Made by a program: the position numbers and the translations under genes. From Gemmatimonadales bacterium (lineage in GTDB: Bacteria; Gemmatimonadota; Gemmatimonadetes; Gemmatimonadales; GWC2-71-9), in assembly GCA_025934955.1 (NCBI GenBank), contig JAICWE010000012.1:1-64000 (forward strand): a stretch of DNA of 64,000 bases, given 5' to 3'. Shown piece by piece: positions 1 to 64,000 of the stretch (within the stretch, counting starts at the first letter, position 1; each line of letters starts with the position of its first letter). The notes beneath the pieces are model-generated. The model worked only from the letters and a program-made list of their open reading frames with translations. It was not told where the DNA came from and did no database searches.

Positions 1-1338
1 CAGTCCCAGATACGCCGATTCGCGCGCGCGCCCGAGCAGCGCCGCGAAGCCGAGGTCGGCCGGCGCGGCGTACGCCGGGTTGCCGTCGAGCACCACGAGC
101 CACCCGACATCGCCGGCGCGGAGTGCCGTTGCCAGCGCGGCGAGGCCGGTGCCCGGCTCGCCCGCGGACAGCGGCGACTCGATGTACCGCACGGTGTGGC
201 CGTCGCCGCCGAGTAGGACGTTCAGGAGATGCGCGAGCGCGTGTACCGCGGCGGGCTGCCGCTCGCCCGCGACGATCGCGGCCCGACCGCGATGCGCGAG
301 CAGATCGTCGGCGACGGCGGTGAGCCACGGCGCGTGCGCCGATGTGCCGCCGCCGGCCGACTCCGGAAGCTGCACGGCCAGCTCCGGCGCCGCGCGCGCG
401 ATCTGCTCGACGAGTGCCGCCACGAGCGCCGGAATCTCCGTCGGCCGCGCGCGGAGACGATGATCCGCCGCGCCGCCGGTCACCGTCGGCGCGGTCTCGA
501 CGACGTAGAGCCGGTTCATGTCATCCGACGGCGCGGCGATCCGGCGCCGGCTCGCGAAGTCGCGCGCGTAGCGCAGGTGGAACGGCATTGCGCCGAGGAA
601 GTCCGCGTCCAGCGCGAGGACCACATCGGCGGCGGTGAAGTCGTACACCGGCTGCATCGCGCGGCCGAACGCCGCGGCGGTGCCGGTGCGCTCGCCGTCA
701 CCCGCGAGCGGCGCGTCCACGTGGATGCGAGCGCCGGGATACCGCTGGCGCACGTGGGCCAGGAGCTCCGCCTGCAGCGGCGACGCGCTCGGCTCCAGCA
801 GGAGATGAAGGCCCGCGCCCCGGGCGCCGACCGCGTTCCGCAGTTGCGCCGGGCCGATGGCAGCGGCGAAGGCGTCCCACGGGCTCCGCCGTCCGGCGCG
901 ACGAGGGGTCCGTGCCCGCTGCGGATCGTAGAGCCCGAGCACGGAGGCCTGCTCGAGCACACCGGCGGCGCCGAAACTCGCCGGATGATCGGGGTTGCCC
1001 TCGATCTTGGTGGGCCGGCCGGTGTGGCTTTCCACCAGGAGGCCGGTCGCGTAGCCGCCTAACGTCATGCTCGTGGCGTAGCGGCGCGCGGCACTCGGCG
1101 TCATCTCGGGCGGCCGGGCGACGTAGGGCAGGATCTTCTGCCGCGGCCGCCGGACGCAGCCGCCGATCCCCGCGAGCGCGAGGCTGGCGCCGAGGAGGTG
1201 GACGAAGCTGCGGCGGGTGAGCGCGCCGGGCGGCAGGTCGGCGGCCGGAGGGAACTCGCGGGCGAGCGCCTCCTGCAGCTCGGGGCGTCCGAGCAGCTCG
1301 TCGAGCCGGCGCCAGTAGCGCTCGCGGGGATCGCTCAC
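1..1338 (-). CDS. actB: ActB, molybdopterin/iron-sulfur-type subunit of alternative complex III (partial)
   Basis: Partial: 446 codons are inside the window and the C-terminus runs off the left edge. ActB is the large periplasmic subunit of alternative complex III, a quinol:electron-acceptor oxidoreductase that replaces cytochrome bc1. The N-terminus has an ActB-style Tat-like signal, LTRRSFVHLLGASLALAG, followed by a Cys. At the truncated end VVLDGNPAYAAPADLGF matches the GNPxYxAPADLxF stretch typical of ActB and related molybdopterin-fold proteins. Family knowledge: this subunit keeps the molybdopterin fold without the cofactor, and its iron-sulfur part lies further C-terminal, outside the window. 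The GTG start at 1338 lies 6 bases after the actA stop, so the two are almost certainly cotranscribed. Confidence 0.88.
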   Translation of the reverse strand, partial: MSDPRERYWRRLDELLGRPELQEALAREFPPAADLPPGALTRRSFVHLLGASLALAGIGGCVRRPRQKILPYVARPPEMTPSAARRYATSMTLGGYATGLLVESHTGRPTKIEGNPDHPASFGAAGVLEQASVLGLYDPQRARTPRRAGRRSPWDAFAAAIGPAQLRNAVGARGAGLHLLLEPSASPLQAELLAHVRQRYPGARIHVDAPLAGDGERTGTAAAFGRAMQPVYDFTAADVVLALDADFLGAMPFHLRYARDFASRRRIAAPSDDMNRLYVVETAPTVTGGAADHRLRARPTEIPALVAALVEQIARAAPELAVQLPESAGGGTSAHAPWLTAVADDLLAHRGRAAIVAGERQPAAVHALAHLLNVLLGGDGHTVRYIESPLSAGEPGTGLAALATALRAGDVGWLVVLDGNPAYAAPADLGFAALLGRARESAYLGL

Positions 1339-1344
1339 GGTGCG

Positions 1345-1986
1345 CTACCGGTGACAGGCGGAGCAGGTGGTGATCTCACGGATTCGCTCCGCCCCGAGCG
1401 GTGCGAGTGCGGCGCCGGACGACGGGTGCCAACCCATCGTGGTGATGGCGTCCTCCGGTCGGCGGTGCGGCTCGGGATTCCGGTGACAGTCGATGCACCA
1501 GGCCATCGTGAGCGGAGCCGCCTGGCTCACCTGCGCCATGCGGTCCACTCGACCATGGCAGCTCTCGCAGGCGACGCCGCCTTTCGCGTGGATCGCATGA
1601 TTGAAGAAGACGAAGTCGGGAAGCCGATGCACCCGTTGCCACGGTATCGGCCGCTGGGTCGAGAGGCTCTGCCGCACCGGCGCGAAGGCGGCGCTCGCCA
1701 TCCACGCGGCGTTGTGGCAGGGGAGGCACGTCTCGGTCGCGGGGAGGCCGGCGCTGGCGCCGCGGTCCGCGGTGTAGTGGCAGTAGCGGCAGTCGATGCG
1801 GAGATCACCGGCGTGGATGCGATGGTCGAACGGAACCGGTTGCGCCGCGCTGCGTCCCTGCTCGGTCACCGCCGGCGTCCGCACCCAGAGCATGAGCGCG
1901 ACCGGAACGCCGACCGCGAGCAGCAGCGCGGCGCCGAGCGACGCTCGCGCGATGCGGTTGCTCCGGGGCGAGAAGAGGGCGGGCAT
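1345..1986 (-). CDS. actA: ActA, pentahaem cytochrome c subunit of alternative complex III
   Basis: Protein of 213 aa with one N-terminal membrane anchor (about residues 10-32) and five CxxCH haem c motifs in order: CRYCH, CLPCH, CESCH, CIDCH and CSACH, the last at the extreme C-terminus. This number and spacing fits ActA, the multihaem subunit that passes electrons from quinol oxidation towards a soluble cytochrome or directly to an oxidase. It is immediately followed by actB, the standard order of act operons. The ATG at 1986 follows a 38-base gap after the SDR gene, so the act operon probably begins here, although read-through from the upstream carbohydrate genes cannot be excluded. A generic class III multihaem cytochrome is unlikely given the actB neighbour. 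Confidence 0.92.
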   Translation of the reverse strand: MPALFSPRSNRIARASLGAALLLAVGVPVALMLWVRTPAVTEQGRSAAQPVPFDHRIHAGDLRIDCRYCHYTADRGASAGLPATETCLPCHNAAWMASAAFAPVRQSLSTQRPIPWQRVHRLPDFVFFNHAIHAKGGVACESCHGRVDRMAQVSQAAPLTMAWCIDCHRNPEPHRRPEDAITTMGWHPSSGAALAPLGAERIREITTCSACHR

Positions 1987-53535: not shown

Positions 53536-53574
53536 GGCGTCGCACGCCGCTCCGCCGCTCTATGGGCTGTGCAT

Positions 53575-54312
53575 ATGGCAGCCCATGGAACCCGGTGTCC
53601 GGTCCTCCTCCTGTTCTGTCTCACCGGATTCCTGCCGGCGAGCGGCGCGGCGCAGGCCGCGCCGCGCTGCCGGATCCTCTGCCCTCCGTCGTTCAGCGTC
53701 ACCCCGGTCGCCATCGTCTCCCACGTGCTGGGGCACGCGCGCGTGCGCCTGCTCCCGAGCAACACCGAGCAGGAAGTGCCGAGCACGACGAACCTCGAGC
53801 TGATCGGGACGATCAGCATCCCCACCGCCATCCGGCGGCTCGCGCTCTACGCCAGCTTCCAGTGGCTCCCGACCGCAAAGGCCCGCTCCAACCCGTTCAC
53901 CGAGTATCGCGCCTCGCAGCTCGGTGATGACGTGCGCGCCAACTACCCGTCCGTCAGTCTGGGCGCCCAGGTGACGGCGCTCGACCGGAAGCAGACCCAC
54001 GGCTGGCTCGGCCTCACGCCCTACGTCGCCGACCTCTACAGCAACGCCGCGCGCCCGAGCGACGGCGGCGACTACACCCACAAGCTGGACCTCGGCCTCA
54101 CCGCGTCGGTCGGCGCGCTCAACTGGCTGCCGCCCACCGACGCATGGCTCCGCGGCATCACCGCCGTGGTGACGCTGGACTACGTCGCGACCGGCCTGCC
54201 CAAGGCCGGCGACGAAGTGCCGGCCGGCCAGCGCGTCTTCCTCACCGGCGGGCGCGGCGCGTCGCTGCTCGCCGGCATCTCGATCCCGGTGGCGGAGCCG
54301 CCCAAGTCCTGA
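53575..54312 (+). CDS. Exported protein of unknown function, probable outer-membrane or periplasmic beta-rich
   Basis: Protein of 245 aa from the ATG at 53575 (a GTG at 53569 is possible). The signal peptide ends ASGAAQA. The mature part alternates hydrophobic and polar residues in long strands (IPTAIRRLALYASFQWLP, VSLGAQVTALD, LDLGLTASVGALNWLPP, GASLLAGISIPVA), consistent with a small beta-barrel. No family recognised. It stands before the PQQ dehydrogenase operon on the same strand, separated by a 65-base spacer with hairpins; a role in letting alcohol or lanthanide in is conceivable but unsupported. Confidence 0.65.
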   Translation: MAAHGTRCPVLLLFCLTGFLPASGAAQAAPRCRILCPPSFSVTPVAIVSHVLGHARVRLLPSNTEQEVPSTTNLELIGTISIPTAIRRLALYASFQWLPTAKARSNPFTEYRASQLGDDVRANYPSVSLGAQVTALDRKQTHGWLGLTPYVADLYSNAARPSDGGDYTHKLDLGLTASVGALNWLPPTDAWLRGITAVVTLDYVATGLPKAGDEVPAGQRVFLTGGRGASLLAGISIPVAEPPKS

Positions 54313-54377: not shown

Positions 54378-56180
54378 ATGAATGCACCTGCCGTTTTCCT
54401 CCGCCGCGCTCTCCCGCCGCTGCTCGCGACGGCGCTCGTCGTGAGCTGCCGGGGCCGCGAGCGGCAGGACGTCGGGATGGTGGCGTCGAGCGGCGCGCCG
54501 TCCGCCGGCGTCGCCTCCGCCGACGGCGCGCACCGCCGCGCCATGGCCGACGCCGACAACTGGGCGATCTACGGCCGCGACTACGGCAGCCAGCGCTGGT
54601 CGCCGCTGGACCAGATCACCACCGCCAACGTGAAGCAGCTGGCGCCGGCGTGGGTCTTCCATTCCGGCATTCCGCACGCTTCCGAATCCAATCCGGTCGT
54701 GGTGGACGGCACGATGTATCTCAGCACCGCGCTGAATCACGTCGTGGCGCTCGACGCCCGTACCGGTGCCCGCAAGTGGGAGTACGTCCACCACTACGGC
54801 ACCACCGTGGACTGCTGCGCCGCGATCAACAAGGGCGTGGCGGTCTACGACGGTCGCGTGTACATGGGCACGGTGGACGCGCGGCTCGTGTCCCTCGACG
54901 CGAAGACCGGCCGCAAGCTGTGGGACGTGCAGGTGGGCGACAACGAGATGGGCTACCACCTCACCGCGGCGCCGCTCGCGGTCGAAGGCCGCGTCATCGT
55001 CGGGGTGAGCGGCGGCGAGCAGGGCTGCCGCTGCTACGTGGACGCCTATGACGCCGCCACCGGCGCGCGGCTCTGGCGCTGGTACACCATCCCGAGTCCG
55101 GCCGACGGCGGCTGGTGGGGCCACTGGCGCGAAGCCGACGAGTTCGGCCAGTCGTTCCATCGCGACATCGCCGCCGAGAAGGCCGACAGCGCGAAGTACA
55201 CCGATTCGTGGCGCCACGGCGGCGGGCCGATGTGGCAGCACCCGTCGTACGACGCGGCCACCGGCCTCCTCATCTTCGGCGTCGGCAACCCGGCGCCGGA
55301 CAACGACGCGAGCGTGCGCCCCGGCGACAACCTCTACACCGATTGCATCGTCGCGCTCGACGCGCGCACCGGCAAGCTCCGCTGGTACTACCAGGAGGTG
55401 TCGCACGATCGGTGGGACTACGACCCGATGTCGCCGCCGCTGCTGATCGGGGTCAAGGATTCGTCGGGCACGGTGGTGCCCGGCGTGGTCGAAGCCGGCA
55501 AGGACGGCTTCCTCTACGTGCTCGACCGCGCGACCGGCCATCCGATCCGGAAATCGGAGCCGCTCACCGTGCTGCAGAACTACATGACGACGCCCACCGC
55601 CGACGGCGTCATCATGAACCCGGCGACGCTGGGCGGCAATGACTGGTCGCCGGCGTCGTACAGCCCCGAGACCGGCTACGTGTACGTCGAGGAGAACGTG
55701 CTGCCGCAGAAGTACAAGCGGCTGCCCGAGACCTTCCGTCCGCCGGCGCAGTGGTGGGGCGGCGTGACCATCGCCACGCCGGGCGGGCACTACGGCTTCA
55801 TCGAGGCGGTGGACCCCGGCACCGGACGGATCGTGTGGCGGCACCGGACCGACCAGCCGGTCATCGCCGGCTCCATCGCGACGGCGGGCGGGCTGGTCTT
55901 CACCGGCACCTCCGACAAGAAGGTGCTGGCGCTCGATGCGAAGAGCGGCGACGTGCTGTGGAGCGCCGCGGCGCCGGCCGGCGTCAACGCGCCGCCGATC
56001 ACCTACGCGGTGAACGGCCGGCAGTATGTCGCCGTCGCCGCCACCGGCATCCAGACGATGAACACCCCGCGGGGCGACGCGCTGCTCGCCTTTGCGCTCC
56101 CGGACCGCGCGGCGCGCGGCGCCACGCCCGCCCCCGCCGCGCCCGCCGCGCCCGCCGACAGCGCCGGAGGCCACACGTGA
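54378..56180 (+). CDS. PQQ-dependent alcohol dehydrogenase (lanthanide-type motif), copy 1
   Basis: Protein of 600 aa, an eight-bladed quinoprotein. It has a signal peptide with a lipobox-like VVSC, the vicinal disulfide motif DCCAAIN and catalytic Asp347 in RWDYDPM. Asp349, two residues on, is the extra acidic ligand that marks lanthanide-dependent (XoxF/ExaF-type) enzymes; calcium enzymes such as MxaF have Ala there. Tryptophan-docking blades contain YLSTALNHVVALDART and VFTGTSDKKVLALDAKSG. It oxidises an alcohol in the periplasm and passes electrons to a cytochrome c. Ends with an Ala/Pro-rich tail. Its stop overlaps the GTG of the next gene, a cytochrome c. Confidence 0.88.
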   Translation: MNAPAVFLRRALPPLLATALVVSCRGRERQDVGMVASSGAPSAGVASADGAHRRAMADADNWAIYGRDYGSQRWSPLDQITTANVKQLAPAWVFHSGIPHASESNPVVVDGTMYLSTALNHVVALDARTGARKWEYVHHYGTTVDCCAAINKGVAVYDGRVYMGTVDARLVSLDAKTGRKLWDVQVGDNEMGYHLTAAPLAVEGRVIVGVSGGEQGCRCYVDAYDAATGARLWRWYTIPSPADGGWWGHWREADEFGQSFHRDIAAEKADSAKYTDSWRHGGGPMWQHPSYDAATGLLIFGVGNPAPDNDASVRPGDNLYTDCIVALDARTGKLRWYYQEVSHDRWDYDPMSPPLLIGVKDSSGTVVPGVVEAGKDGFLYVLDRATGHPIRKSEPLTVLQNYMTTPTADGVIMNPATLGGNDWSPASYSPETGYVYVEENVLPQKYKRLPETFRPPAQWWGGVTIATPGGHYGFIEAVDPGTGRIVWRHRTDQPVIAGSIATAGGLVFTGTSDKKVLALDAKSGDVLWSAAAPAGVNAPPITYAVNGRQYVAVAATGIQTMNTPRGDALLAFALPDRAARGATPAPAAPAAPADSAGGHT

Positions 56181-56758
56181 GCCGCGCCGCGTCGCTCGCG
56201 CTCGTGCTCGGCGTCCTCCTCGCCGCGCCGGCCGCGGCCCAGCAGCAGGGCCGCGGCAACGTCGGCCACGACCGGAACAGCGCGGCCGGCATCGAGACCA
56301 ACGACGAGATGCAGCCGGCGACGCTCCCGCCGCTTCCCGCCGGCGTCACGCTCGACATGATTCGCTCGGGTGACAGTCTCTTCCACGGCAAGGGCGGCTG
56401 CTTCGCCTGCCACGGGAGCGAGGGCGAAGGGATGCCCGGCGCCGGCGACGCGATCACCGTCGCCTTCAACTACGCGCAGCAGGACCCGCACTCGATTGAC
56501 TCGCTGGTCACCGCGGGCATCCCCGACGCGCTCACCCGCAGCCCGATCGCCATGCCCGGCCGCGGTGCCCGCTCCAACCTCACCGACGACGAGATCCGGC
56601 GGGTCGCGGCGTACGTGTGGGCCATCAACCAGGTGCGCGGCGAGCCGTGGCCCGGCGGCCACGCCGACCACCGCGCCTTGAATCCGCCGACGACGCAGCT
56701 CTCGACCCAGCCGCCGAGCACCTCGACCGCGCACGCCGCCGGTCGGGGGCGGCGTTAG
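56177..56758 (+). CDS. Periplasmic cytochrome c, first partner of the PQQ dehydrogenases
   Basis: Protein of 193 aa starting at a GTG that overlaps the dehydrogenase stop. Sec signal peptide ending AAPAAAQ. One haem site, GCFACHGSEGEGMPG, with the distal Met in SPIAMPGRGARSNL and the closing helix DDEIRRVAAYVWAINQ. The C-terminal end is Pro/Ser/Thr-rich. Position between the two dehydrogenases suggests it is the electron acceptor of one or both. Confidence 0.88.
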   Translation: MSRAASLALVLGVLLAAPAAAQQQGRGNVGHDRNSAAGIETNDEMQPATLPPLPAGVTLDMIRSGDSLFHGKGGCFACHGSEGEGMPGAGDAITVAFNYAQQDPHSIDSLVTAGIPDALTRSPIAMPGRGARSNLTDDEIRRVAAYVWAINQVRGEPWPGGHADHRALNPPTTQLSTQPPSTSTAHAAGRGRR

Positions 56759-56772
56759 CCCATGGTGACGAC

Positions 56773-58656
56773 ATGAACCGAGCCAGCCCGATGCGAATCG
56801 CGTACTCCCTGTCCGCCGCCGTCGCCGCGGCGCTCGTCGTGAGCGGGTGCAAGGGCAGCGCTACCGAGACCGGGATGACGCCCAGCACCGGCACCGCGCC
56901 GGCCGGCGAGGTCACCGCCGCGCTCGCCGCGACGCCGTCGAGCGGAGCCAACGGCAATCCGGCCAACGCCGGCCCCGGCGAGTGGACGCTGCCGGGCCGC
57001 GACTACGGGCAGACCCGCTACAGCCCGCTGGATCAGATCACCGCGGCCAACGTCAGGAACCTCAAGGTCGCGTGGACCTTCTCCACCGGCGTGCCGCGGG
57101 GCCACGAGGGCAGCCCGCTGGTGGTGAACAACACGATGTACATCGTGACGCCCTACCCGAACAACGTCTTCGCAATCGATCTCACCAAGCCGAGCGGGCC
57201 GCTCAAGTGGTCGTACCATCCGACCACCAACCCCGCCTCGCAGGGCGAGGCGTGCTGCGACGTGGTGAGCCGCGGGGCGTCGTACGCCGACGGCACCATC
57301 GTCTTCAACCGGCTCGACAATCACACCGTCGCGCTCGACGCCGAGACCGGCAAGGTGAAGTGGGACATCCAGCTCGACTCGATCAACCACGGCTCGACGA
57401 TGACCATGGCGCCGCTCATCGTGAAGGACAAGGTGATCGTCGGCAACAGCGGCGGCGAGATGGGCGTGCGCGGCTGGGTCGCGGCCGTCGACCTCAAGAG
57501 CGGGAAGCTCCTCTGGCGGGCGTACAACACCGGCCCCGACAAGGACGTGCTGATCGGCGCCGACTTCAAGCCCTACTACCCGCAGTACCGCGGCGCCGAC
57601 GCCGGGATCAAGACGTGGCCCGGCGAGCAGTGGCGCCTCGGCGGCTCCACGGTGTGGGGCTGGATCACCTACGATCCCGACGCCAACCTGATCTACTACG
57701 GCACCTCCAATCCGGGGGTGTGGAATCCCGACCTCCGTCCCGGCGACAACCTCTGGGGCGCGACGGTGTTCGCCCGCGACCCCGATACCGGTGCCGCGCG
57801 CTGGGCCTATCAGTTGACGCCGCACGATTCCTGGGACTACGACGGCGTCAACGAGAGCATGGTGGTGGACTTGCCGATCGGTGGACAGAGCCGAAAGGTC
57901 GTGGTGCACTTCGACCGCAACGGCTTCGGCTACACCATTGACCGGCTGACCGGACAGGTGCTCGTCGCCGAACCGTACCAGTTCATCAACTGGTCCACCG
58001 GCGTGGACCTCAAGACCGGGCGACCGGCGCGGGTACCGTCCAAGGAGACCCACCAGGGCGTGAACGCGCGGAACATCTGCCCCTCCTCCACCGGCGCCCG
58101 CGACCAGCAGCCGGCGGCGTACTCGCCGCGCACCGGGCTGTTCTACACGCCGACCACCAATCTCTGCATGGACTACAAGGGCATTGACGCCAGCTACATC
58201 GCCGGCACGCCGTATCTCGGCGCCGACGTGCAGATGTACGCCGGGCCCGGCGGCAACCGCGGCGAGTTCATCGCCTGGGACGCGGTGCACGGGAAGAAGG
58301 TGTGGGGCGACAAGGAGATGTTCCCGGTGTGGAGCGGGGCGCTCGCCACCGCCGGCGACATCGTCTTCTACGGCACCATGGACGGCTGGTTCAAGGCGGT
58401 GGACGCGAAGACCGGCCAGGAGCTGTGGAAGTTCAAGTGCGGCTCCGGTGTCATCGGCAACGCGATGACGTTCCTCGGCCCCGACGGCAAGCAGTACGTC
58501 GCGGTGTACTCCGGCATCGGCGGGTGGGCCGGCGCGGTGGCGCTCGCCGGCATCGCCAACACCGATCCGACCGCGGCGCTCGGCGCCGTCGGCGGAATGG
58601 CGGATCTGCCGAAGTACACCGCGCCGGGCAGTACGATGTACGTGTTCGGCCTGTAA
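56773..58656 (+). CDS. XoxF-like PQQ alcohol dehydrogenase, copy 2
   Basis: Protein of 627 aa from the ATG at 56773. Signal peptide with lipobox VVSGC, then the typical GEWTLPGRDYGQTRYSPLDQ entry of methanol/ethanol-type quinoproteins. Vicinal Cys in EACCDVVS; catalytic Asp355 and lanthanide-type Asp357 in SWDYDGVNES, the form I associate with XoxF/ExaF; FYTPTTNLCMDYKG and GVIGNAMTFLGPDGKQYVAV follow. Closer to known methanol/ethanol dehydrogenases than copy 1. The product is predicted to oxidise a small alcohol, possibly methanol, but substrate cannot be told from motifs. No PQQ biosynthesis gene lies in the window. Confidence 0.9.
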   Translation: MNRASPMRIAYSLSAAVAAALVVSGCKGSATETGMTPSTGTAPAGEVTAALAATPSSGANGNPANAGPGEWTLPGRDYGQTRYSPLDQITAANVRNLKVAWTFSTGVPRGHEGSPLVVNNTMYIVTPYPNNVFAIDLTKPSGPLKWSYHPTTNPASQGEACCDVVSRGASYADGTIVFNRLDNHTVALDAETGKVKWDIQLDSINHGSTMTMAPLIVKDKVIVGNSGGEMGVRGWVAAVDLKSGKLLWRAYNTGPDKDVLIGADFKPYYPQYRGADAGIKTWPGEQWRLGGSTVWGWITYDPDANLIYYGTSNPGVWNPDLRPGDNLWGATVFARDPDTGAARWAYQLTPHDSWDYDGVNESMVVDLPIGGQSRKVVVHFDRNGFGYTIDRLTGQVLVAEPYQFINWSTGVDLKTGRPARVPSKETHQGVNARNICPSSTGARDQQPAAYSPRTGLFYTPTTNLCMDYKGIDASYIAGTPYLGADVQMYAGPGGNRGEFIAWDAVHGKKVWGDKEMFPVWSGALATAGDIVFYGTMDGWFKAVDAKTGQELWKFKCGSGVIGNAMTFLGPDGKQYVAVYSGIGGWAGAVALAGIANTDPTAALGAVGGMADLPKYTAPGSTMYVFGL

Positions 58657-58676
58657 CCACGGGTGGGGGCGGTGCG

Positions 58677-59591
58677 GTGAGGCGAATCATCCTGGTCGTG
58701 CTGGGCGGGCTCGCGGCCGCCGCGTGCCATCGCGCGCCGGCGACACCGCGCGCATCCGCCTCGGCGTCCGCACTTGCCGCGGGCGACCTCCGGGTCTGCG
58801 CCGATCCCAACAACCTGCCGTTCACCGACAAGGCCGGCGCCGGCTTCGACAACGCGATCGCCGAGCTGGTGGCGCGCGAGCTGGGCGCCCGGGTGAGCTA
58901 CGTCTGGCACCCCGAGCGGCACGGCTTCCTCCGCGAGACGCTCAACGCCGGCCGCTGCGACGTGGTGCTCGGCGTGCCGGCGGCGACCGGGCAGCTCCTC
59001 ACCACCCGGCCCTACTACCGCTCCGGCTACGTCTTCGTGCAGCGCCGCGGCGACCGGCACGGCGCCCCCGTCCGCTCGTTCGACGACCCGCGGCTCGCCC
59101 GTCTCCGCGTCGGCATCCACGTCATCGGCGACGACTACAACAGTCTCCCGCCCGGCGTGGCGCTCGCCCGTCGCGGCATCGTGAAGAACGTCGTCGGCTA
59201 CAGCATCTACGGGAACTACGACCGGCCCTCGCCGCCGGCCGATCTCATCCGCGCGGTGGAGCGGGGCGACGTGGACGTCGCGATCGCCTGGGGGCCGCTC
59301 GCCGGCTACTTCGCGAAGCGGAGCACGGTGCCGCTCGCGCTGACGCCGGTGCCGGCCGGCGGCGCCGGCGGCGCCGCGCAGTTCGTGTACGACATCGCCG
59401 CCGGCGTGCGCCGGGGCGACACCGCGATGCGCGCCCGGGTGGACGGCGCGCTCGCGCGGAGGCATGCGCAGGTGGAGGCGATACTCGCGCAGTACGGTGT
59501 CCCGACGCGCTCGGGCGCCGGCGAGCCGCTCACGGCGGGGACGGCGGCGCGTGCGCCGCGGGAGGAGGTGGCGATATGCGACTGCGACTGA
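58677..59591 (+). CDS. xoxJ: XoxJ/MxaJ-like periplasmic binding protein
   Basis: Protein of 304 aa from a GTG at 58677. Signal peptide with a Cys at the cleavage region (LAAAACH). The mature part is a solute-binding fold beginning LRVCADPNNLPFTDKAGAGF, then the second lobe VGIHVIGDDYNSLPP and VGYSIYGNYDRPSPP, all typical of XoxJ/MxaJ. These proteins accompany lanthanide- or calcium-type methanol dehydrogenases and are thought to help activate the enzyme. Its place directly after the XoxF-like gene supports that annotation. It overlaps the next gene by 16 bases. Confidence 0.85.
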   Translation: MRRIILVVLGGLAAAACHRAPATPRASASASALAAGDLRVCADPNNLPFTDKAGAGFDNAIAELVARELGARVSYVWHPERHGFLRETLNAGRCDVVLGVPAATGQLLTTRPYYRSGYVFVQRRGDRHGAPVRSFDDPRLARLRVGIHVIGDDYNSLPPGVALARRGIVKNVVGYSIYGNYDRPSPPADLIRAVERGDVDVAIAWGPLAGYFAKRSTVPLALTPVPAGGAGGAAQFVYDIAAGVRRGDTAMRARVDGALARRHAQVEAILAQYGVPTRSGAGEPLTAGTAARAPREEVAICDCD

Positions 59592-60055
59592 TGCTGGCGC
59601 TGCTGCTCGGAATCGGCGCCGCGGCCGCGTGCGATCGCGGCGTGCGATCGGAGGACGTCGGGATGACCTCGAGCGGCATCGCCGTTTCCCGCGCCGGCAC
59701 CACCGGCGGGCAGGCGGTCCGGCCGGGCATCCATCCGGCGGTGGTGTTCGGCGAGCGGGTGAACCCGTACACCGGCAACGCCTCCGCCATCCAGGACGGC
59801 CGCCGCCTCTTCGTCGCCTACAACTGCTCCGGCTGCCACGGCGGCCGCGCCGGCGGCGGGATGGGGCCGGCGCTGCGCGACAGCGCGTGGATCTACGGCA
59901 ACAGCGACACCCAGATCTTCGGGACCATCGTCGAGGGCCGCTCCGCCGGCATGCCGGCGTGGGGCAAGGTGCTCCCCGAGGACCAGATCTGGAAGCTCGT
60001 CGCCTACATCCGGACGTTAGGCACCGCGGAAGAGCCGGACAAGGTGCTCCAGTGA
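59576..60055 (+). CDS. XoxG-like cytochrome c lipoprotein
   Basis: Protein of 159 aa from the ATG at 59576, with a strong GGAGGAGG upstream. Signal peptide with lipobox-like AAAAC. One haem c site, YNCSGCHGGRAGGGMG, with a Met ligand in GRSAGMPAWGKVLPEDQIW. It resembles XoxG/cytochrome cL-type acceptors of PQQ dehydrogenases. A membrane-held carrier of this kind could pass electrons directly to the cytochrome c domain of the oxidase subunit II encoded next. Its stop overlaps the GTG of coxB. Confidence 0.85.
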   Translation: MRLRLMLALLLGIGAAAACDRGVRSEDVGMTSSGIAVSRAGTTGGQAVRPGIHPAVVFGERVNPYTGNASAIQDGRRLFVAYNCSGCHGGRAGGGMGPALRDSAWIYGNSDTQIFGTIVEGRSAGMPAWGKVLPEDQIWKLVAYIRTLGTAEEPDKVLQ

Positions 60056-61059
60056 CCGTCCGGTCCCGGTCCGCCGCCCTCGCCGCCGCCGCGCTCCTGC
60101 TCGGCGGGTGCGCCCGCGCGCCGACCTTCATGCGGCCCGCCGGCGCCGCGGCCGAGAGCGAGGCGTCGCTCGGGTGGTTCCTGATCGTCGTCTCCTGCGC
60201 CGTCGTGCTCATCGTAGCACTGCTGGTGCTGATCGGCTCGCTGCGCTCCCGCGGCGGCGATCCGCACGCGGTGCGGCGCGAGGGGCCCGGGCTCCGCTGG
60301 ATCACGATCGGCGGCATCATCCTGCCGGCCATCGTGCTGGTCGTCGCCTTCGTGCTCACGCTGGGGACGCTCAACGCCGTCGCCCGGCCGCCGGCGGACG
60401 CGTTGCCGCTCGCGATCACGGTGACCGGCCATCGCTGGTGGTGGGCGGTGCGCTACGCCGGCCAGGACCCGCAGGACCAGGCGCTCACCGCGAACGAGAT
60501 CCACATCCCCGTCGGGCGGCCGGTGCGGATCACCCTCGAGGCCGGCGACGTGATCCACAGCTTCTGGGTGCCGGAGCTGGCGGGGAAGACCGACGTCATC
60601 CCGGGCCAGCGCAACAGCATCTGGCTCGAGGCGCGGAAGCCCGGGGTCTACCGCGGCCAGTGCGCCGAGTACTGCGGACTGGAGCATGCGCGGATGGCGT
60701 TCGTGGTCGTCGCCGAGCCGCCGGGCGACTTCGCGCGGTGGCTGGCGCGGCAGGCGACGCCCGCCGCGATGCCCACCGATCGGCTCGCGCGCCGGGGCCA
60801 CGACGTCTTCGTCGGCGGCCCGTGCGCGCTCTGCCACGAGGTGCGCGGCACCACCGCCGCCGGGCGGCAGGGCCCCGACCTCACCCACCTCGCCACCCGC
60901 CGCACCATCGCCGCCGGCACGCTGCCCAATACCCGCGGCAACCTGATGGGCTGGGTCGCCAACGCACCGGCGCTCAAGCCCGGCACGCTCATGCCGAAGC
61001 TCACGCTCACCCCGGACGAGCTCCAGGCGGTCGTCGCCTACCTCGAGACGCTCAACTAG
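60052..61059 (+). CDS. coxB: Cytochrome c oxidase subunit II with fused cytochrome c (caa3 type)
   Basis: Protein of 335 aa from a GTG at 60052. A lipobox (LLLGGC, Cys20) and two membrane helices (about 40-62 and 74-103) lead to a cupredoxin domain with CuA ligands H169 (DVIHSFWVPE), C204, C208, H212 and M215 (CAEYCGLEHARM). After it, about 235-335, there is a fused cytochrome c with CALCH (258-262) and a Met in GTLMPKLTLTPDEL. Fused cytochrome makes this a caa3-type enzyme that takes electrons directly from periplasmic carriers. Part of the operon with the PQQ dehydrogenases. Confidence 0.95.
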   Translation: MTVRSRSAALAAAALLLGGCARAPTFMRPAGAAAESEASLGWFLIVVSCAVVLIVALLVLIGSLRSRGGDPHAVRREGPGLRWITIGGIILPAIVLVVAFVLTLGTLNAVARPPADALPLAITVTGHRWWWAVRYAGQDPQDQALTANEIHIPVGRPVRITLEAGDVIHSFWVPELAGKTDVIPGQRNSIWLEARKPGVYRGQCAEYCGLEHARMAFVVVAEPPGDFARWLARQATPAAMPTDRLARRGHDVFVGGPCALCHEVRGTTAAGRQGPDLTHLATRRTIAAGTLPNTRGNLMGWVANAPALKPGTLMPKLTLTPDELQAVVAYLETLN

Positions 61060-61067
61060 GAGACGGC

Positions 61068-62975
61068 GTGGCCACGACGCTCACCGCCCGGCTCGATCGC
61101 GAATGGGAGACGCCGCACAACCTCTTCGGCGTGCTCGCGACGGTGGACCACAAGACGATCGGCAAGCGCTACCTCGTCACCGCCTTCGTCTTCCTCATCC
61201 TCGGCGGGCTCGAGGCGGCGGCGATGCGGGCCCAGCTCTCCGGCGCCGACAAGCGGCTGCTCTCGCCCGAGGCGTACAACCAGCTCTTCAGCATCCACGG
61301 CGTGACGATGATCTTCCTCTACGCCTCGCCGATCCTGTCGGGCTTCGCCAACTACATCTGGCCGCTGCTGATCGGCTCGCGCGACATGGCGTTCCCCCGC
61401 CTCAACGCGCTGAGCTTCTGGATCTTTCTCCTGTCCGGGCTGTTCATCTACTCCAGCGTGCTGGTGGGGCAGGTGCCGGACCGCGGCTGGTTCGCCTACG
61501 CGCCGCTGACCGAGAGCCAGTACGCGCCCGGCCTCAACATGGACTTCTACGCGCTCGGCCTCACCTTCCTCGGGCTCTCGACCACCGTCGGCGCGATCAA
61601 CTTCATCGTCACCTTCTTCAAGCTCCGCGCGCCGGGCATGTCGCTCAACCGGGTGCCGATCATGATGTGGGGCACGCTCACCGCGTCGGTCTCCATCGTC
61701 TTCGCGATGCCGTCGCTCACCGTCGCCTGCATCCTCCTCTGGTTCGACCGCCGGCTCGGCATGCACTTCTTCGAGGCGAGCGCCGGCGGCCATCCGATGC
61801 TGTGGCAGCACCTCTTCTGGATCTTCGGCCATCCCTGGGTGTACATCGTGGTGCTGCCGGCGATGGGCATCGTCTCCGACGCGCTGCCGGTGTTCTGCCG
61901 CCGTCCGCTGGTGGGCTACACCTTCGTCGCGCTCGCCACCATCGCCACCGGCATCCTCGGCTTCGGCGTCTGGGTGCACCACATGTTCGCCACCGGACTC
62001 CCCTCGGTCGCCATGACCTTCTTCGGCGCGGCGAGCATGGTGATCACCATCCCCAGCGCCGTCGCCGTGCTCGCCTGGATCGCGACCATCTGGTACGGGC
62101 GCATCGTGGCGAAGACGGCGTTCCTCTTCATGGCCGGCTTCGTGGTGCTGTTCGTGATCGGCGGCGTGTCCGGGGTGATGACCGCGGCGGTGCCGTACGA
62201 CTGGCAGCTCACCGACAGCTACTTCATCGTGGCGCACCTGCACTACGTGCTGGTGGGGATCAACGTCTTCGCGGTGATGGCCGGCTTCTACTACTGGATG
62301 CCCAAGATGACCGGCCGCCTGCTGAACGAGCGGCTGGGGAAGTGGAACTTCTGGGTGATGTTCCTCGGCTTCAACCTCGGCTTCTTCCCGATGCACATCG
62401 CCGGGCTGCTCGGCATGCCGCGGCGGATCTACACCTATCCCAGCGGCCTCGGCTGGAGCACGGTGAACCTGATCAGCAGCATCGGGGCGTACGTCTTCGC
62501 CGTCGGCGTGCTGCTGTTCATCATCAACGCGCTGTGGAGCATCCGCCGCGGCGCCATCGCCGGCCCCAACCCGTGGGACGCGGGCACGCTGGAGTGGAGC
62601 ACGCCCTCGCCGCCGCCGGCGTACAACTTCGCCGTGATCCCGACGGTGCGGAGCCGCCATCCGCTGTGGGAGGACCGGCTGCCGCCGGAGGGCGGGGGAC
62701 GGAGCAGCTTCAGCGACGGGCTCACCATCCCCGAGGGGCGGGAGACGGTCGAGACCTCCGCCCTCGACGCCGAGCCGCGCGCCGTGCTCCAGATGCCGGA
62801 GGACTCGCTCTGGCCGCTGATCCTGGCGTCCGGCCTCACCGCGCTGTTCTACGGGCTGCTGATCGTGGGACCGGTGCTCGCGGGGATCGGGCTCGCGGTG
62901 ACCGTCGTCGCCATCATCGGCTGGCTCTGGCCCAGCGAGCGCGAGCTGCTGCAGCTCGAGGAGGCGCGGCCATGA
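61068..62975 (+). CDS. coxA: Cytochrome c oxidase subunit I
   Basis: Protein of 635 aa from a GTG at 61068 with GGAG upstream. Haem-copper core of twelve helices: low-spin haem ligands in FSIHGVTMIFLYASP and HLHYVLVG, CuB ligands H255 (FGHPWVYI) and the HH pair in WVHHMFATG; Y259 is the cross-linked Tyr. The D-channel Glu found in A1-type oxidases (GHPEVY) is Trp257 here, and the YS substitution of A2-type enzymes (YSHPxVY) is absent. About 75 extra C-terminal residues end in two hydrophobic segments. Coupled to coxC. Confidence 0.95.
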   Translation: MATTLTARLDREWETPHNLFGVLATVDHKTIGKRYLVTAFVFLILGGLEAAAMRAQLSGADKRLLSPEAYNQLFSIHGVTMIFLYASPILSGFANYIWPLLIGSRDMAFPRLNALSFWIFLLSGLFIYSSVLVGQVPDRGWFAYAPLTESQYAPGLNMDFYALGLTFLGLSTTVGAINFIVTFFKLRAPGMSLNRVPIMMWGTLTASVSIVFAMPSLTVACILLWFDRRLGMHFFEASAGGHPMLWQHLFWIFGHPWVYIVVLPAMGIVSDALPVFCRRPLVGYTFVALATIATGILGFGVWVHHMFATGLPSVAMTFFGAASMVITIPSAVAVLAWIATIWYGRIVAKTAFLFMAGFVVLFVIGGVSGVMTAAVPYDWQLTDSYFIVAHLHYVLVGINVFAVMAGFYYWMPKMTGRLLNERLGKWNFWVMFLGFNLGFFPMHIAGLLGMPRRIYTYPSGLGWSTVNLISSIGAYVFAVGVLLFIINALWSIRRGAIAGPNPWDAGTLEWSTPSPPPAYNFAVIPTVRSRHPLWEDRLPPEGGGRSSFSDGLTIPEGRETVETSALDAEPRAVLQMPEDSLWPLILASGLTALFYGLLIVGPVLAGIGLAVTVVAIIGWLWPSERELLQLEEARP

Positions 62976-63586
62976 CCGCCGTTCCCGCTCAGGAGCGCGA
63001 CCTGCATCCGTCGCCCGCGCCGCTGCCGGTGGGCGGGCGGGAGAGCCGCTCCCCCGGCCGCTGGGGGATGATCTGGGTCGTCGCGACCGAGGCGTCGTTC
63101 TTCGCCTACCTGCTCTTCAGCTACTTCTACCTCGCGTCCATGGCGCGCGGCGCGTGGCCGCCGGACGGCGTGCCCGAGCTCAAGCTCAGTCTGCCCAACA
63201 CCGTCATCCTGCTGCTGAGCAGCGGGACCATGTGGTGGGCCGAGTCGAGCATCCGGAAGGGAAGGGCGGCGGCGCTCCGCATCGGCCTGGTCGTCACCTT
63301 CGTGCTCGGCTGCGTCTTCCTCACGATCCAGGGGATCGAGTACTCCCACAAGCACTTCACCCCGCAGACCGACGCGTACGGCTCGCTGTTCTACACCATC
63401 ACCGGCTTTCACGGCGCCCACGTCGCGGTGGGGCTGCTGATGATCGCGGTCGTCGCCGTCCGGGCCTTCCTCGGGCACTTCGACCGGGGCCGCCATCTCG
63501 CCGTCTCCAACGTCGCGCTCTACTGGCACTTCGTGGACGCCGTGTGGCTCGCCGTGTTCACCACTCTCTACCTGACGCCGCGATGA
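62972..63586 (+). CDS. coxC: Cytochrome c oxidase subunit III
   Basis: Protein of 204 aa with five membrane helices, the short form of subunit III. Landmarks: WVVATEASFFAYLLFSYFYL, LSSGTMWWAESSIRKG and FYTITGFHGAHVAVGLLM, YWHFVDAVWLAVFTTLY. It stabilises subunit I and aids sustained turnover. Stop overlaps the ATG of the next gene (ATGA). Confidence 0.95.
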   Translation: MTAVPAQERDLHPSPAPLPVGGRESRSPGRWGMIWVVATEASFFAYLLFSYFYLASMARGAWPPDGVPELKLSLPNTVILLLSSGTMWWAESSIRKGRAAALRIGLVVTFVLGCVFLTIQGIEYSHKHFTPQTDAYGSLFYTITGFHGAHVAVGLLMIAVVAVRAFLGHFDRGRHLAVSNVALYWHFVDAVWLAVFTTLYLTPR

Positions 63587-64000
63587 GTCATCCCGCCCCC
63601 GCCCGGTACGCCGTGCCGGCATCGCTGCTCTGGTTCGGGCTCTTCGGCGCGCCGCTCCTCTGGTCGGTGCAGGAGCTGGTGGGCTATGCGACCACCGCGC
63701 ACCGCTGCTACCCCGCGTCCGTGCCGCTCTCCGGCACGTCGCCCGGCGGCGCATGGGTGCTGGCGCTGGCGGTCACCATCCTGGCACTGCTGGTGTCGCT
63801 CGCCGCCGGCGGCACGGCGCTGCATGCGTGGCGGCGGTCGGCGCACGAGCGCGCCGCGGGCGACGAGGAGGCCTCGCTGCTCGAGGTGGGAGAGGGCCGC
63901 ACCCGCTTCATGGCGTTCGGCGGGCTGCTGCTCAGCGGGCTGTTTCTGATCGCGGTGATCTTCAGCGGGATCGGCCTGCTGTTCGTCTCGCGCTGCGGCT
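63583..64000 (+). CDS. Membrane protein after coxC (partial)
   Basis: 139 codons are in the window and the gene continues past the right edge. Three hydrophobic segments (SLLWFGLFGAPLLWSVQELV, WVLALAVTILALLVSLAA and FGGLLLSGLFLIAVIFSGIG), and RCYP in the first loop. It is coupled to coxC by an ATGA overlap, so it probably belongs to the oxidase operon as an extra small subunit or assembly factor. I do not recognise a named family. Confidence 0.65.
   Translation, partial: MSHPAPARYAVPASLLWFGLFGAPLLWSVQELVGYATTAHRCYPASVPLSGTSPGGAWVLALAVTILALLVSLAAGGTALHAWRRSAHERAAGDEEASLLEVGEGRTRFMAFGGLLLSGLFLIAVIFSGIGLLFVSRCG

Follow-up and report, generated by a model that had tools for sequence, protein, structure and literature searches.

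Near its right end, the Gemmatimonadales contig JAICWE010000012.1 (C105) carries an operon in which two pyrroloquinoline quinone (PQQ)-dependent dehydrogenases, ADH1 and the XoxF-type ADH2, are encoded together with a XoxJ-like protein, c-type cytochromes and the three subunits of a haem-copper oxidase, CoxB, CoxA and CoxC. The stretch that we analyzed (the window) comprises bases 1-64000 of this 64412-base contig, which belongs to a genome of 3.05 Mb (G000) assembled in 110 contigs, with an estimated completeness of ~88%. Our interpretation of the operon, to which we assign a probability of about 0.7, is that it represents a dedicated module for methanol or alcohol respiration that is tethered to the membrane, bypasses quinones and ends in an oxidase whose proton uptake is altered.

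The gene order of the operon is conserved. All ten of its genes (ADH1-cyt1-ADH2-XoxJ-XoxG-CoxB-CoxA-CoxC-membrane protein-cyt2, where cyt1 and cyt2 are c-type cytochromes) are present in identical order in G003, a genome from another genus of the same family, and we therefore do not attribute this order to chance; in G043 the portion from ADH2 to cyt2 is kept. An earlier interpretation of this DNA from its letters and open reading frames (the sequence-only reading) had proposed a search for the same order in other genomes, and because relatives share the order or the linkage, we rejected the view that the cluster is confined to this genome. From the phylum we drew a sample of 395 genomes, 72 of which have a relative of XoxJ, and counted those XoxJ loci with at least 5 kb of downstream sequence. 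A CoxA gene lies within 6.5 kb on the 3' side, on the same strand, in 29 of the 40 loci where XoxJ shares at least 48% identity with that of the window, versus none of 26 where XoxJ is less similar and belongs to another lineage. In a quick tree of XoxF proteins, every oxidase-linked XoxF falls in a clade of 61 members, which also includes three unlinked XoxF (L048, L090, and L108), while a separate, stand-alone clade of 31 has no linked oxidase. A self-contained chain from alcohol to O2 that bypasses quinones, as the sequence-only reading suggested, is the best reading of this conserved linkage, although its quinone bypass is not new: methanol dehydrogenases that depend on cytochrome c and bypass quinones are textbook knowledge.

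The same linkage is annotated outside the phylum, on plasmids of Sinorhizobium medicae, Methylocystis, Bradyrhizobium, Mesorhizobium and, in a divergent arrangement, Methylocella. In addition, the available text of PMC10875860 describes linkage of CoxI/II/III, CtaG, XoxG and XoxJ to XoxF in the xoxF3 clusters of Acidobacteria and Gemmatimonadetes. Because of these published and annotated examples, the premise of the sequence-only reading, by which the gene for the terminal oxidase generally lies elsewhere, is not right for the XoxF lineage seen here, and the XoxF-XoxJ-XoxG-coxBAC linkage is itself already known.

What distinguishes the oxidase is the set of channel residues that it has lost. 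The A1 subtype of A-family oxidases is recognized by the glutamate of an XGHPEV motif and the A2 subtype by a YSHPXV motif (PMC8780969, PMC8361435), and the A-family K-channel includes Lys354 in Paracoccus numbering (PMC3084760). The CoxA of the window fits the A family, based on its CuB and haem ligands, the tyrosine of helix VI (Tyr280) and its association with a CuA-containing subunit II, and it keeps the residues of the D-channel mouth (N113, D124, N131, and N199). Its motif is FGHPWVY, in which the A1 glutamate (E278) is replaced by tryptophan and the Tyr-Ser of A2 by FG, and at the position of the K-channel lysine (K354) it has an alanine, within PSAVA. Counted from the residue encoded at 61077, these two replacements are Trp254 and Ala330. 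As judged from its sequence, this CoxA fits neither the A1 nor the A2 definition.

The CoxA proteins of the collected loci are of two types. The W-type, to which that of the window belongs, comprises 29 rows with tryptophan and one with phenylalanine at E278; at K354 these rows have Ala, Ser, Thr or Gly, apart from one with Gln. The E-type comprises 23 rows (one of which ends before the K354 position) that keep E278 but have Gln at K354, often with a hydrophobic residue at N113 and Glu at N199. K354 is absent from every XoxF-linked CoxA examined. The W-type forms a single clade with 100/99 support, its phenylalanine member representing a change from W to F. A DNA pattern for HPWVY detected 28 W-type sites in 26 of the 395 genomes (none with the reversed control), and 22 of these genes have XoxF, XoxJ or XoxG within ~10 kb. 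As a further control, 41 genomes were searched independently for CoxA, which yielded 31 distinct CoxA outside the XoxF-linked types, including one from the window's own genome (C68), all 31 of which are canonical at N113, D124, N131, N199, E278, Y280, T351, and K354. No XoxF, XoxJ or XoxG was found near any of the 18 whose full neighborhood was in view (17 together with that on C68; the remainder of the 31 were typed by residues only). The same search also returned three more oxidases of the XoxF type, all with Gln, of which two adjoin XoxF/XoxG and one is on a short contig. Both types occur outside the phylum, the residues at E278 and K354 being W/A in Methylocella, Methylocystis and Mesorhizobium and E/Q in S. 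medicae and Bradyrhizobium; W/A oxidases are also present in Burkholderia multivorans, B. cenocepacia and Caballeronia.

A second character of the oxidase-linked XoxF proteins is a lipoprotein-like N-terminus. Lipobox calls were based on a simple pattern rule applied to the end of the signal sequence, and within this phylum 39 of 47 oxidase-linked XoxF have a lipobox, versus one of 28 unlinked XoxF (Fisher p 3e-12, uncorrected for relatedness), the sole match among the latter lying within an ordinary signal. By eye, all oxidase-linked XoxF resemble lipoproteins except two (L120 and L167), and ordinary signals are seen in the three unlinked XoxF that fall within the linked clade. The cytochromes in the XoxG position (38/47) and cyt2 (32/34) are also lipobox-like. 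We could not find the oxidase residue losses, their tight association with XoxF or these lipoprotein signals in the literature searched, nor, subscription papers excepted, any A-family oxidase that lacks both E278 and K354; in the available text of PMC10875860 we found no discussion of oxidase residue losses or XoxF lipoprotein signals.

The nine genes from ADH1 to the small membrane protein are all on the plus strand (Table 1) and are separated by overlaps of 4-16 bp or gaps of 8-14 bp, in agreement with the tight, consecutive arrangement initially described. The overlaps are 4 bp at ADH1/cyt1, ADH2/XoxJ, XoxG/CoxB, CoxA/CoxC and CoxC/membrane protein, and 16 bp at XoxJ/XoxG, and the gaps are 14 bp at cyt1/ADH2 and 8 bp at CoxB/CoxA; cyt1 and CoxA start with GTG (at 56177 and 61068, respectively), the latter with GGAG on its 5' side. 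No terminator-like sites were found in these short junctions. The operon extends beyond the window to a tenth gene, that for cyt2 (contig 64017-64406). At its other end, homologs of the protein encoded at 53569-54312 are situated directly 5' of XoxF in several W-type loci (L111, L164, L169, L170, and L171), and the small membrane protein (63583-64002) is conserved 3' of CoxC in most W-type loci. Neither of these conserved, operon-associated proteins had a match in Pfam or NCBIfam.

The assignment of both dehydrogenases as lanthanide-type PQQ enzymes was supported, as both score above the TIGR03075 cut-off of 480 bits (ADH2, 661; ADH1, 487.7) and both have the Asp-x-Asp motif. ADH2, in which this motif lies within WDYDG, aligns best with XoxF of Methylacidiphilum (4mae, 740 bits) and ADH1, with WDYD, aligns best with PedH (6zcv). 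For both enzymes it is sequence evidence that points to use of a lanthanide. The XoxJ-like protein is of the MoxJ-2 type (TIGR03871, 278 bits vs. a cut-off of 212), and the fusion of a cytochrome c domain to CoxB was also correctly recognized, the protein having both CuA ligands and a CxxCH haem domain. The proposed XoxG-like protein is a c-type cytochrome in the expected place; however, it falls short of the MoxG equivalog (cytochrome cL) model TIGR03872 (65 vs. 148 bits), and its name reflects position and weak similarity. Use of methanol is plausible because the same genome also carries pqqC and fae, the gene for the formaldehyde-activating enzyme Fae.

Table 1. Features of the operon and its 5' neighbor in the window.
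Feature	Position	Strand	Remarks
Small secreted-type protein, 5' of ADH1	53569..54312	+	Possible first gene of the operon
ADH1, PQQ-dependent alcohol dehydrogenase, PedH-like	54378..56180	+	WDYD lanthanide motif; lipobox-like N-terminus
cyt1, c-type cytochrome that travels with ADH1	56177..56758	+	CFACH
ADH2, XoxF-type lanthanide methanol dehydrogenase	56773..58656	+	WDYDG motif; lipobox VSGC
XoxJ-like periplasmic binding protein	58653..59591	+	TIGR03871 above cut-off
XoxG-position c-type cytochrome, possible lipoprotein	59576..60055	+	CSGCH
CoxB	60052..61059	+	CuA motif CAEYCGLEHARM; C-terminal haem c domain (CALCH)
CoxA, W-type lineage	61068..62975	+	CuB/haem ligands and cross-link Tyr kept; E278->W, K354->A
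TGG codon, Trp replacing the D-channel glutamate	61836..61838	+	HPEVY -> HPWVY
Ala codon replacing the K-channel lysine	62064..62066	+	PTGxK -> PSAVA
CoxC, oxidase subunit III	62972..63586	+	Family search
Small membrane protein, no family match	63583..64000	+	Stop codon 64000-64002, 2 bp beyond the window

In the mechanism that we infer, XoxF and the PedH-like ADH1 would oxidize alcohols in the periplasm, with the assistance of XoxJ, and electrons would pass via the small c-type cytochromes (XoxG, cyt1, and cyt2) to the haem c domain of CoxB and on to CuA, then via haem a to the haem a3/CuB center of CoxA, where O2 would be reduced. Quinones and complex III would thereby be bypassed. We consider this electron path likely because of the gene content and the known chemistry of these protein families. 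As the dehydrogenase and several of the cytochromes are predicted lipoproteins, the chain in this phylum would probably be anchored to the membrane beside the oxidase. Protons would reach the active site of CoxA by an altered route, and pumping would probably be changed or reduced, based on the absence of the D-channel Glu or Tyr-Ser and of the K-channel Lys. The D-channel mouth kept in the W-type suggests that protons still enter there, and loss of the Glu and Lys would imply either another route or weak or no pumping. A more specific proposal, which we put forward tentatively and regard as short of probable, is that the XoxF-linked oxidases represent a distinct A-family branch that reduces O2 in a lipid-anchored complex with methanol dehydrogenase, lacking both the canonical gate of the D-channel and the lysine of the K-channel, and with another proton route or no pumping.

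Several points weigh against the dedicated module. Other residues may carry protons in CoxA, and the lipobox contrast is largely one of clade versus clade, with no correction for relatedness. Moreover, the XoxF proteins of cultured Proteobacteria that were checked show no clear lipobox, that of S. medicae having an ordinary signal peptide. Tethering of XoxF is thus not universal, and, since the Proteobacterial proteins show an ordinary signal or none, we rejected the idea that oxidase-linked XoxF generally have lipoprotein signals. Six of the 28 W-type genes have no XoxF or XoxG in view, and W/A oxidase genes adjoin genes for a GMC oxidoreductase and gluconate 2-dehydrogenase subunit 3 on a B. 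multivorans plasmid (L180, 7764-13549) and in Caballeronia (L183, 7784-13378). The oxidase is therefore not strictly XoxF-specific, and the latter loci suggest that the same lineage serves other periplasmic dehydrogenases.

The residue losses could also be expected of an oxidase that acts as an electron sink, removing electrons rapidly without pumping and so keeping alcohol oxidation or aldehyde detoxification going. Such a role fits the W-type, in which E278 and K354 are both lost, and the many E-type oxidases in which loss of K354 is accompanied by N199->E and N113->Leu. Changes at the position of N199, N207 in R. sphaeroides, are known to uncouple pumping. However, the D-channel mouth is fully kept in most W-type oxidases, suggesting that protons enter there, and we consider the sink unlikely, although it is the best placed of the alternatives. 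Less probable still is that this is an ordinary caa3-type oxidase of general respiration that shares only its regulation with the dehydrogenases, with cytochromes that can replace one another and with complex III or alternative complex III as additional sources of electrons. Pools of cytochrome c are commonly shared, genes at the left edge of the window may encode part of an alternative complex III, and the six W-type genes mentioned above would be consistent with such a role. Yet the genome has a separate, canonical CoxA on C68 (residues NDNN..E..K), the XoxF-linked oxidases form lineages of their own, and the linkage divides XoxF into coupled and stand-alone clades, all of which argue against such an ordinary oxidase. 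Decay of the oxidase genes to an inactive enzyme, to which the replacement of two normally essential channel residues might point, is very improbable given that all 30 W/F rows retain Tyr280 and every CuB and haem ligand and that the clade is old and diverse, with intact reading frames across several families and the Proteobacteria.

At the left edge, the minus strand of the window (3-1986) encodes a molybdopterin-type protein of the TAT variant, present as its start (TIGR04519 above cut-off), together with a multihaem cytochrome, and the contig ends there; these genes are consistent with an alternative complex III cut by the contig end. Elsewhere in the genome there are at least six PQQ dehydrogenase genes in 3 Mb (on C30, C61, C49, C109, and the window's C105), including a stand-alone XoxF-XoxJ pair on C109. 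A single XoxF scan of genome contigs gave three loci, of which one was a weak match and the other two were XoxF lacking any cox genes in view. An E/Q-type coxBAC of the window's genome is located at the start of contig C12 (L068, 30-3290), near the XoxF-linked oxidases in the tree, and probably represents a second XoxF-oxidase operon truncated in the assembly. On C49 (L069, 1952-6454, minus strand), a PQQ dehydrogenase, a CuA-type CoxB without haem c, a divergent (B-type-like) CoxA and a Caa3_CtaG assembly protein are encoded in a row as a second PQQ dehydrogenase-oxidase unit.

The linkage indicates that a complete methanol-to-oxygen chain is inherited in soil bacteria as a single unit. Of greater importance, residues regarded as essential to proton delivery in A-family oxidases have been lost from the oxidases of these units, and the lineage concerned is old, has intact reading frames and occurs in cultured bacteria. 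Provided that the enzymes are active, they would be natural tests of the minimum channel residues needed by a haem-copper oxidase, and would alter the ATP yield to be expected when methanol is oxidized in soils in a lanthanide-dependent way.

Among known systems, the xoxF3 clusters share with the window XoxF, XoxG, XoxJ, CoxI, CoxII, CoxIII, a cytochrome c and, following CoxIII, a small hypothetical protein that is conserved, a likeness in gene content. Relative to these clusters, as given in the available text of PMC10875860, the window adds a PedH-like second dehydrogenase, accompanied by a cytochrome of its own, and has a CoxA without E278 and K354. Plasmid pSMED03 of S. medicae WSM419 (L184) and a plasmid of Methylocystis iwaonis (L179) have xoxF, a xoxJ-type binding protein, cytochrome c, coxB, ctaD, cox3, a small protein and an assembly factor in one run, with a CoxA of the E/Q type in the former and the W/A type in the latter, but, unlike the window, neither has the ADH1-cyt1 pair. 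The A1 and A2 aa3/caa3 oxidases, such as those of Mycobacterium (aa3, 7rh5) and Thermus (caa3), have in common with that of the window a CuA subunit with fused haem c, the CuB and haem ligands, the cross-link tyrosine and the D-channel mouth, whereas the window CoxA has neither the Glu (A1) nor the Tyr-Ser (A2) at the end of the D-channel, nor the K-channel Lys. Similarly, XoxF of M. fumariolicum (4mae) and PedH of Pseudomonas putida (6zcv) belong to the same fold family as the two dehydrogenases of the window and share their Asp-x-Asp motif, but, in contrast to both, the window enzymes are predicted lipoproteins linked to a terminal oxidase.

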